A stretch of DNA of 64,000 nt from Isoetes taiwanensis (taxonomy: Eukaryota > Streptophyta > Lycopodiopsida > Isoetales > Isoetaceae). The translations under genes were made by a program, and so were the position numbers. The notes under the pieces are model-generated. The model worked only from the letters and a program-made list of their open reading frames with translations, was not told where the DNA came from and searched no databases. The stretch covers positions 13,619,877 to 13,683,876 of the forward strand of contig JAJEKV010000013.1 in NCBI GenBank assembly GCA_021234155.1. The letters run 5' to 3'. Positions within the stretch are counted from its first letter, which is position 1. Each line of letters opens with the position of its first letter. This document shows positions 12,783-14,033 of the stretch, piece after piece.

Positions 12783-14033
12783 ATGGCCCGAACCAAACAG
12801 ACCGCAAGGAAGCGTCGCCCAGGCGAAACCACCAGCGCCACTGAGGCAGAGATCATTCGGAAGATGCTTCGTGAGAGGCTCGCAAGAGGGGGTCGTTCGC
12901 CTTCGGACGAAGAGCAAGACACCTCCGATTTGATCGATGTCTTCAACCAGCAGGTGGACGAGGACGAGGCCACATCACCAAACTCCATGGACGACGAGAC
13001 GAGGGAGGTGTATGAAGAAATAGAGCGGGAGATCCCGCAGAGAACAAGCGCACCATTCGTGACGCACTCCACGGAAATCCTCGAGCAGGATGAGCAAGTG
13101 ACCGGTCTGGAGCCAGCGGAGGTAGCAGACCTTAGAAGATTCATCAGGAAGTACGAGCGCCGGCAGAAGAGAAGGGAAGACAAAAAGAGGAAAAGGAAGG
13201 AGGAGGAACAAAAGGCAGCAGAAGAAAAGAAGAAAGCGAAAGGGAAGTTCGTGGCTGGCATAAGGAGAACAAAGGACTGCCCGCCAAGGAAGAGGCCGAA
13301 CCCCAACATTATTATCAAGGAGCGGCAACCTGACGAACCCCCAAACCCTTCCGACGACTCTTCTGATGAAGACTTCAACCCTAACGCCGCAGGGAGCTCT
13401 TCCAAGCACCCAGCGACGAAAGCGTGAAGTACCCGAGAAAGCCAAGACCGAGCAACCCCACCAAGACCAAGTGCAGAAGCCCCCTGAATACCCGGCATGG
13501 GATAGAAAGAAGCAACCACGACCTGCCCGGGAAGCCTACGGGCCCACGGCTGTGGTGAAGATTTATGAGAGGAAGATGAGAGAGCACGAGGCCTACATGA
13601 AGAAATGGGAGGCCTATAACAAATATTATGAAGAAAACAGAGTTAAGTTCATCGAGGGAGGGCGACCAACGAAGCAGCAAACCTTAAGGCCGCCACCACC
13701 GAAGCCCAAGGTTCCCAAGCCGCCACCCAGGAAGAAAGCGGATAGGAAGGAGGTGGAGAGAAGAGCGTTAAGGGAGATTAGACACTTCCAGCGCAGCTTC
13801 GGTCTCCTAATTCCCCGTGCCCCCTTCGCTCGGTTGGTGCGTGAAGTTATGCAGGCCTATAGAACAGACTTTAGAGTCACCTGGACGAGGCCCGGCAATG
13901 CAAGAGGCTGGTGAGGGAGGCAAAGATAGTGCAACATTTTGAAGATTCAACAAACTGCACTATCCATAAGCTGGTAACCTTAATGCGACAAGACATGAGT
14001 CTTGCGACCCGCATTAAGGGAGAACGCCCTTAG
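12783..14033 (+). CDS. Histone H3 (CENH3-like) variant carried by the chromovirus
   Basis: The ATG at 12783 opens with [10 protein letters not shown], identical to the first nine residues of mature histone H3, including K4 and K9; position 10 is Arg instead of Ser. A long middle follows: an acidic part, a strongly basic stretch (RRQKRREDKKRKRKEEE), SDDSSDEDFNP, and a proline-lysine linker (PPPPKPKVPKPPPRKK). From about 13765 comes a histone fold: [24 protein letters not shown], then from 13902 [20 protein letters not shown] and RIKGERP with stop TAG at 14031. HFQ, LLIP and VTLMR resemble plant CENH3 more than canonical H3, and the loop-1 to helix-2 stretch seems about two residues longer, a CENH3 trait. 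The frame is 0, then +1 between about 13366 and 13427, then back to 0 near 13890. Both shifts lie near CAG or CTG and may be sequence errors. Total is about 415 codons against 136 for normal H3. It lies upstream of gag with its own TATA box. I know of no family with this arrangement. Confidence 0.85.

Follow-up and report, generated by a model that had tools for sequence, protein, structure and literature searches.

Two families of chromodomain-bearing Ty3/Gypsy LTR elements in the lycophyte Isoetes taiwanensis encode a variant histone H3 that has a long extension at its N-terminus, and it is almost certain that in this genome the H3 gene belongs to the elements and has been kept by selection. 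The selective preservation of an element-borne H3 suggests that these elements alter the chromatin around them. A literature search that included a direct phrase query returned no retrotransposon encoding a core histone in the available portions of open-licence PMC papers, and the word "histone" is absent from the main text of the I. taiwanensis (PMC8566536) and I. sinensis (PMC10541799) genome papers. One copy of the first family (family A) lies in the window, by which we mean the whole stretch of 64,000 nucleotides that was analyzed; there the H3-like gene stands between the primer-binding site and gag. The features of this copy, in window coordinates, are as follows.

10617..12113, + strand: 5′ LTR, 91.9% identical to 22249-23745 in a 1525-column alignment; by eye it starts at about 10620 with TG and ends with CA
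12115..12126, + strand: primer-binding site TGGTATCAGAGC, from sequence inspection
12314..12386, no strand: imperfect palindrome 5′ of the H3 gene (DNA fold z -4.61)
about 12502-12577: relative of the 12314..12386 palindrome, without significant fold (z -0.49)
12673..12679, + strand: TATAAAT 110 nt 5′ of the ATG, a putative core promoter for the H3 gene
12783..13427, + strand: H3-like gene, first frame, with the H3 tail and charged linker (214 aa); alone it has no Pfam match
13366..13914, + strand: H3-like gene, second frame (+1), with the remaining linker and the first two thirds of the fold (Pfam Histone 1.5e-9; PDB H3 4.9e-9)
13905..14033 (start approximate), + strand: H3-like gene, third piece, first frame again, with the end of the fold (Pfam Histone 0.001, under the curated cut-off; PDB H3.2 5.6e-7)
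14179..14252, no strand: strong palindrome between the H3 gene and ORF2 (DNA fold z -6.90)
14376-14450: weaker copy of the 14179..14252 palindrome (DNA fold z -1.47)
14636..14642, + strand: second TATAAAT, 5′ of ORF2, from sequence inspection
14758..16300 (end approximate), + strand: ORF2 region in the H3-gag interval, broken in this copy, with 87-89% DNA identity to sister copies L039 and L040
17767..18090, + strand: aspartic protease, RVP_2, weak (1.3e-4, above the curated cut-off)
18581..18868, + strand: part of the reverse transcriptase (PF00078, 3.9e-12)
19307..19663, + strand: RNase H (PF17919, 3.6e-32)
20047..20687, + strand: integrase in two frames, a zinc-binding piece (PF17921, 2.3e-12) and a weak core piece (rve_3, just 0.053)
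21058..21318, + strand: chromodomain at the integrase C-terminus, type II-like by inspection (PF00385, 9.2e-12; PDB chromodomain alignment)
22249..23745, + strand: 3′ LTR, 91.9% identical to the 5′ LTR

We take TGGTATCAGAGC at 12115 to be a primer-binding site of the tRNA-Met type, the type that plant chromoviruses also have. No target-site duplication is apparent by eye at the window copy, the five bases flanking its LTR ends being different. Among the four palindromes that were folded, those with z -4.6 and -6.9 are strong; the other two, at z -0.5 and -1.5, are not. At the stretch matching the second TATAAAT of the window, L039 and L040 both have CTATAAATA, and no Pfam family matches the one ORF2 piece of family A that was scanned (L039:4805-5317). 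By inspection the chromodomain of the window (PEMILD..YLVKWKHLPVEDATW) agrees with type II, and because such a type II-like domain is without two of the cage residues, it is doubtful that it reads K9 methylation directly. A bacterial-type promoter scan and an Rfam search of the window gave nothing useful. A myosin exon was also recognized; it is of the plant type and not specific to a species. Adjoining the element, an ORF at 8780-9556 (- strand) matches DUF7869 (3.1e-53); the same-strand ORFs near it have no Pfam match, and the group may be part of another mobile element. On the other side, TATAAATTTATAC repeats are clustered at 24214-25006 in both direct and inverted orientation.

The original prediction described an ORF at 12783 that opens with the H3 tail, continues into a histone fold, has its own TATA box and lies inside the LTRs. 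Its first 10 residues are indeed those of the H3 tail, the fold motifs (including RIKGERP) occur in histone order in the window frames, TATAAAT is present at 12673, and the gene lies inside the LTRs, past the TGGTATCAGAGC word and ahead of gag. It is not a single ORF: a +1 frame shift within 13366-13427 is undone near 13905, and straight translation meets 12 internal stops, which exclude reading the whole stretch through as one ORF. With these frame shifts and stops, the window copy of the gene must be regarded as damaged. The frame shifts had been overlooked, as had the near-canonical second family and the TATA-preceded ORF between the H3 gene and gag. The pieces of the window gene were searched separately, and both pieces of the fold match the Pfam Histone profile (the second below cut-off) and H3 chains in the PDB, as listed above; chance resemblance to H3 is excluded by these separate matches.

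Searches of the genome (1,658,258,908 bases in 1110 contigs) show how widespread the gene is. With the second window piece as query, 150 of 8434 first-look candidates were scored and all match, so that family A occupies at least 150 distinct places, on 80 contigs. The scored matches are free of stops in 103 cases and contain one in 47; 59 lie in open frames of at least 400 aa regardless of stops, and 42 combine such a frame with a stop-free match, so the intact ORF sought in other copies is present in many of them. When a plant H3 was the query (150 of 9022 candidates scored), the places found were 15 host H3 genes (96-98% identical), each uninterrupted and in one frame, and 135 further places, none of which overlaps the family A list. 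A stop interrupts the match in 6 of these 135, and an open frame of at least 400 aa with a stop-free match is present in 49. We fetched 27 of them (15 by default and 12 chosen) to define family B; the fold motif lies in an open frame in 26 of the 27, and 18 of the 27 run for more than 300 aa from a Met. The copy numbers of both families are lower bounds (at least 150 and at least 135). All A and B copies were located through their H3 gene, and the survey's scope is thus carriers of the gene, with relatives that are without it outside that scope.

The proteins of the two families differ in their folds and N-termini. Family A has the H3 tail and a fold that is 59% identical to host H3 (3 rows checked), whereas family B has no H3 tail, an extension that begins MAITKSAPDP or variants of this, and a near-canonical H3 fold with 84-88% identity to host H3 (4 rows checked). 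Profile searches place both in the histone family, as had been expected of the C-terminus (Pfam Histone, 2.1e-28 for A and 2.5e-41 for B), and in the PDB the A profile matches H3.3 (1.6e-34) and H3.1 (1.5e-33) best. The N-terminal extensions are 314-355 aa long in the 5 proteins checked, and a Pfam scan of two proteins found no known domain in the extensions of A and B. Homology between the A and B extensions was considered and rejected, since the hhalign profile alignment is confined to the fold and the part immediately preceding it. Two B variants, L067 and L072, start with MPRFKLTVDLKK and end with GEFR or GDFR, and over the whole protein they are 48% and 47% identical, respectively, to L028; L071 resembles these two, and the start of L073 differs again.

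Selection on the gene was measured by pairwise NG86 dN/dS, given here as medians. The A fold gives 0.075 (342 of 351 pairs among 27 rows, one of them, L050, with an out-of-frame fold) and 0.061 in 16 full proteins (117 of 120 pairs), and the A extension gives 0.179 (118 of 120 pairs). For B the fold gives 0.026 (218 of 325 pairs, with 105 saturated), and 11 full proteins give 0.027 for the fold and 0.116 for the extension (54 of 55 pairs each). In the full proteins, divergence at codon positions 1/2/3 averages 0.09/0.07/0.32 for the A fold and 0.20/0.18/0.41 for the A extension, and 0.04/0.01/0.24 and 0.11/0.08/0.31 in the corresponding parts of B; third-position divergence is well above that of the first and second positions in both families. 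Because 20 A and 12 B copies were selected for long open frames (every A copy reaches 418 aa or more with a stop-free match; every B copy reaches 420 aa or more, and one of them contains a stop), the sample is biased toward intact genes, yet such a choice would not produce the third-position excess. These values and the residue counts below omit the window copy (L001) and L039-L042, which are the places of earlier loci, and L065 was dropped because its fold motif was not found. With medians of 0.06-0.075 for the A fold, 0.03 for the B fold and 0.12-0.18 for the extensions, dN/dS thus indicates that selection preserved the H3 gene. The window gene is not a one-off captured pseudogene, since the copy number, the open frames and the dN/dS exclude this; many copies encode an H3-fold protein under purifying selection. 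It is also very improbable that a captured host H3 gene or messenger is simply carried along with no role: the 15 uninterrupted, single-frame host genes would be easily captured and many copies are broken (the window copy, and the 47 of 150 A matches with a stop), but dN/dS is far below 1 across deep divergence in both families and the TATA box is conserved in A.

The position of the gene is also shared by the two families. In all four longer loci (L039 and L040 of A, L041 and L042 of B) the primer-binding-site word lies 0.67-0.76 kb 5′ of the H3 start, and a 153-nt LTR stretch is 82% identical between A and B. L041 has gag and protease downstream (Pfam), and L077, on the contig of the B gene L036 and 3′ of it, carries reverse transcriptase (4.1e-21), RNase H (4.9e-14), a chromodomain (8.3e-8) and a weak integrase core (Pfam), with an LTR that is 94% identical to that of L042; the Ty3/Gypsy pol order and an integrase chromodomain are therefore present by Pfam in both families (the window for A, L077 for B). 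An extra ORF is conserved inside LTR elements, the ORF being found in many copies and the LTR or primer-binding-site context in the five copies examined for it (the window and L039-L042). A further ORF region lies between H3 and gag in both families. In B it is found at L041:4225-4971 and L042:3854-5299 (the latter starting MAAAADL..), and two L041 pieces from it have no Pfam match. The shared placement and partly shared LTR favor a common element ancestor of A and B.

The flanks of the gene hold putative transcription signals. In family A, TATAAAT stands 104-114 nt 5′ of the start codon in all 22 rows with a located start (25 rows scanned, 3 starts not found; L003 is the same place as L039, leaving 21 distinct copies). 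No TATA box stands out at one fixed distance in family B, where AATAAA within 55 nt after the stop, and likewise TGACGTCA after the stop, each occur in 7 of the 8 rows with enough flank. With an own TATA box in A and a poly(A)-like signal in B, the H3 gene looks like a self-contained cassette, which may be a separate transcription unit. These signals bear on the idea that the protein acts in packaging or before integration, coating element cDNA (with host H4) in the particle or pre-integration complex much as a nucleocapsid would, with no mark left on chromatin. The gene adjoins gag, the fold is basic (pI 9.6-10.3 in all five proteins checked) and carries a long charged extension, and giant-virus histones build nucleosome-like particles (parts of PMC11500106), all of which suit this idea. 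We nevertheless think it unlikely, as a particle protein made with gag needs no TATA box of its own, the 84-88% identity of the B fold to host H3 (4 rows) is above what DNA coating demands, and the extension has a pI near 6.5 in 3 of the 5 proteins.

The original prediction called the window protein CENH3-like, with a longer loop 1. HFQ, LLIP and VTLMR-type residues, which are features of plant CENH3, are common to family A. CENH3 has a longer loop 1 than H3, but the 27 A rows align to host H3 residues 36-135 without an inserted column, so this part of the description does not hold; A also differs from plant CENH3 in keeping the tail ARTKQTARK and in its dispersed copies. Against the 59% identity to host H3, three A rows are 53-57% identical to Arabidopsis CENH3, and H3.3 and H3.1, as noted, are the best PDB matches. 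In the tree built from 35 rows over 88 columns, A joins the same Arabidopsis CENH3 and protein P0001 with support 95/91, and family B forms one clade (100/99); in a 47-row tree B emerges among the host H3 rows, at an unstarred bootstrap of 80-90. Both trees were built after merging identical rows, the 35-row tree takes 10 of the 21 remaining A rows, and L050 is included in the 47-row tree and removed from the 35-row one. AU tests of groupings chosen after the first tree had been seen reject a joint A+B clade (p 0.005, on 88 columns with long branches) and do not reject A with CENH3 alone (p 0.117, on 88 columns with a single CENH3). The proposed phylogeny places B with host H3 and puts A near a CENH3, with 88 columns and that single CENH3 as its basis, and it weakly suggests that family A may be CENH3-like.

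The tree result favors two H3 captures. One capture followed by fast change in A may have occurred instead, and the long branches, the few columns, the single CENH3 and the lack of the host CENH3 in the tree all leave room for it; a CENH3 query found no host CENH3, its best matches (best 150 of 6975 candidates) being canonical host H3. Tight centromeric clustering was also considered and finds no sign in the pair counts of either family: at distances up to 200 kb, A-A pairs number 10 where 2.7 would be expected, and B-B pairs number 1 where 2.2 would be (contig ends ignored), and A, dispersed over its 80 contigs, is mildly clustered. Four of the 10 close A pairs are at most 20 kb apart and may be local duplications.

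The residues of the fold and tail are informative about what the protein might do. The residue roles used here are general histone knowledge. In part they are also given in the available sections of a review of viral histones (PMC9145170). Every one of the 27 A rows keeps R69, R72, R83, H113 and R116 in its fold; C110 and D123 are each kept in 26, L126 in 25 and R129 in 20, and all nine are present in the 25 B rows that cover them. Substitutions in the A fold are R63 to P and K64 to R (27/27 each), K56 to R (26/27) and R42 to E (23) or Q (4); with R63 replaced by P and R42 by E or Q in every row, A may bind DNA weakly. At the chaperone patch, residues 87-90, the usual sequence is E-A/M-L-L in A and F-A-I-L in B, where the host has S/T/H-A-V-L. 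Among 16 Met-starting A proteins, K4 and K9 are present in all, R2 and Q5 in 15 each and S10 in none, and tail residues 1-9 are intact in 14; the H3 tail is absent from 14 of 14 aligned B proteins.

From the conserved fold and interface residues, the H3 variant would be expected to pair with host H4 and replace H3 in some nucleosomes, and we think that the element protein probably does enter nucleosomes. Once there, the element-specific extension could present a docking surface in chromatin, which might serve the element's integration complex or keep silencing off its copies. The differing folds, near-canonical in B and CENH3-like or strongly diverged in A, may mark different chromatin, and the retention of ARTKQTARK with loss of S10 in A would allow K9 marks without the neighboring phosphorylation switch. 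Taking these steps together, we lean toward nucleosome incorporation combined with a role as chromatin tether, target mark or protection from silencing. A more far-reaching version, in which this clade of elements makes its own nucleosome subunit through at least two H3 captures (canonical host H3 in B, a CENH3-like or deeply diverged H3 in A) and each family gives chromatin an identity of its own through its extension, to serve as a landing or protection mark, is at present a tentative possibility. The same residues could be read otherwise, with the protein acting as a dominant-negative decoy that competes for H3 chaperones, modifiers or mark readers and so weakens silencing, for which it need not enter nucleosomes. 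The changes from host at residues 87-90 in both families and the K9 tail retained in A would fit such a decoy; the strong conservation of interface residues suggests instead a true histone pair, and the H3 tail is missing in B, and we judge a decoy role improbable. Retroelements are known to read chromatin through chromodomains, and the H3 families appear to supply a chromatin component as well. If the protein does enter nucleosomes, it offers a direct test of whether a mobile element writes a mark that is later used for targeting or for escape from silencing, and the element H3 genes are in addition a possible source of new H3 variants for a genome.

Plant chromoviruses (CRM, Tekay, Reina and Galadriel) have the same order of protease, reverse transcriptase, RNase H, integrase and chromodomain, with a type II-like chromodomain, and a Pfam-type chromodomain at the integrase C-terminus occurs also in CRM group C (in the accessible text of PMC3059260). 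They differ in that no histone gene is mentioned for them in the available parts of PMC3059260 and PMC6317226, the latter having "histone" once there, on chromodomain binding, whereas in our elements gag is preceded by the H3 gene and a further ORF. Extra ORFs within the LTRs, sometimes 5′ of gag, are likewise described for Ogre/Tat and other plant LTR elements (sections of PMC6431247, PMC7264820 and PMC9289625), but those ORFs are mostly without known domains (PMC9289625, same sections) where we find an H3 fold, and Tat elements are described in part of PMC3059260 as having no targeting domain such as the chromodomain present here. "Histone" does not occur in the available text of PMC7264820 (additional ORFs) or PMC6431247 (giant transposons). 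In Phalaenopsis Gypsy elements with an AlkB demethylase, a host-type function has likewise been captured and kept; these are Ogre relatives with an AlkB-type domain and no histone, and in the portion of PMC9289625 that describes them "histone" appears twice, on histone marks and histone demethylation.

The viral histones offer a second comparison, drawn from parts of PMC9145170. Bracovirus H4, xenomavirus H3 and giant-virus H3 are, as here, one core histone without its partners, and viral histones have high fold identity, in some cases an added N-terminus, and are expected in host nucleosomes. Their folds are mostly 73-89% identical to eukaryotic ones, a range that takes in B (84-88%, 4 rows) and not A (59%, 3 rows). 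The carriers named in those parts of the review are viruses or polydnavirus relatives, and the words "retrotransposon" and "retrovirus" are absent from them, whereas the carrier here is a retroelement and the extensions reach 314-355 aa.

In searches for homologues elsewhere, the whole B protein finds other proteins with an H3 fold, coverage of B being 23-41% among the 120 matches listed out of 5821, and the B extension alone finds no homologue at E <=0.01 among 2012 candidates, a set that may omit the source genome's own records. Relatives of A were sought in viral contigs and relatives of the window piece in phages, and none were found in either. The window piece does find 14 other H3-type proteins. 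Several ENA proteins (P0002-P0004, P0006, P0007 and P0010-P0013) have closely related near-canonical H3 folds in diverged versions, mostly on short contigs, and P0007, P0011 and P0012 have a common non-H3 N-terminal part; these proteins may represent another multicopy or mobile H3 fusion family.
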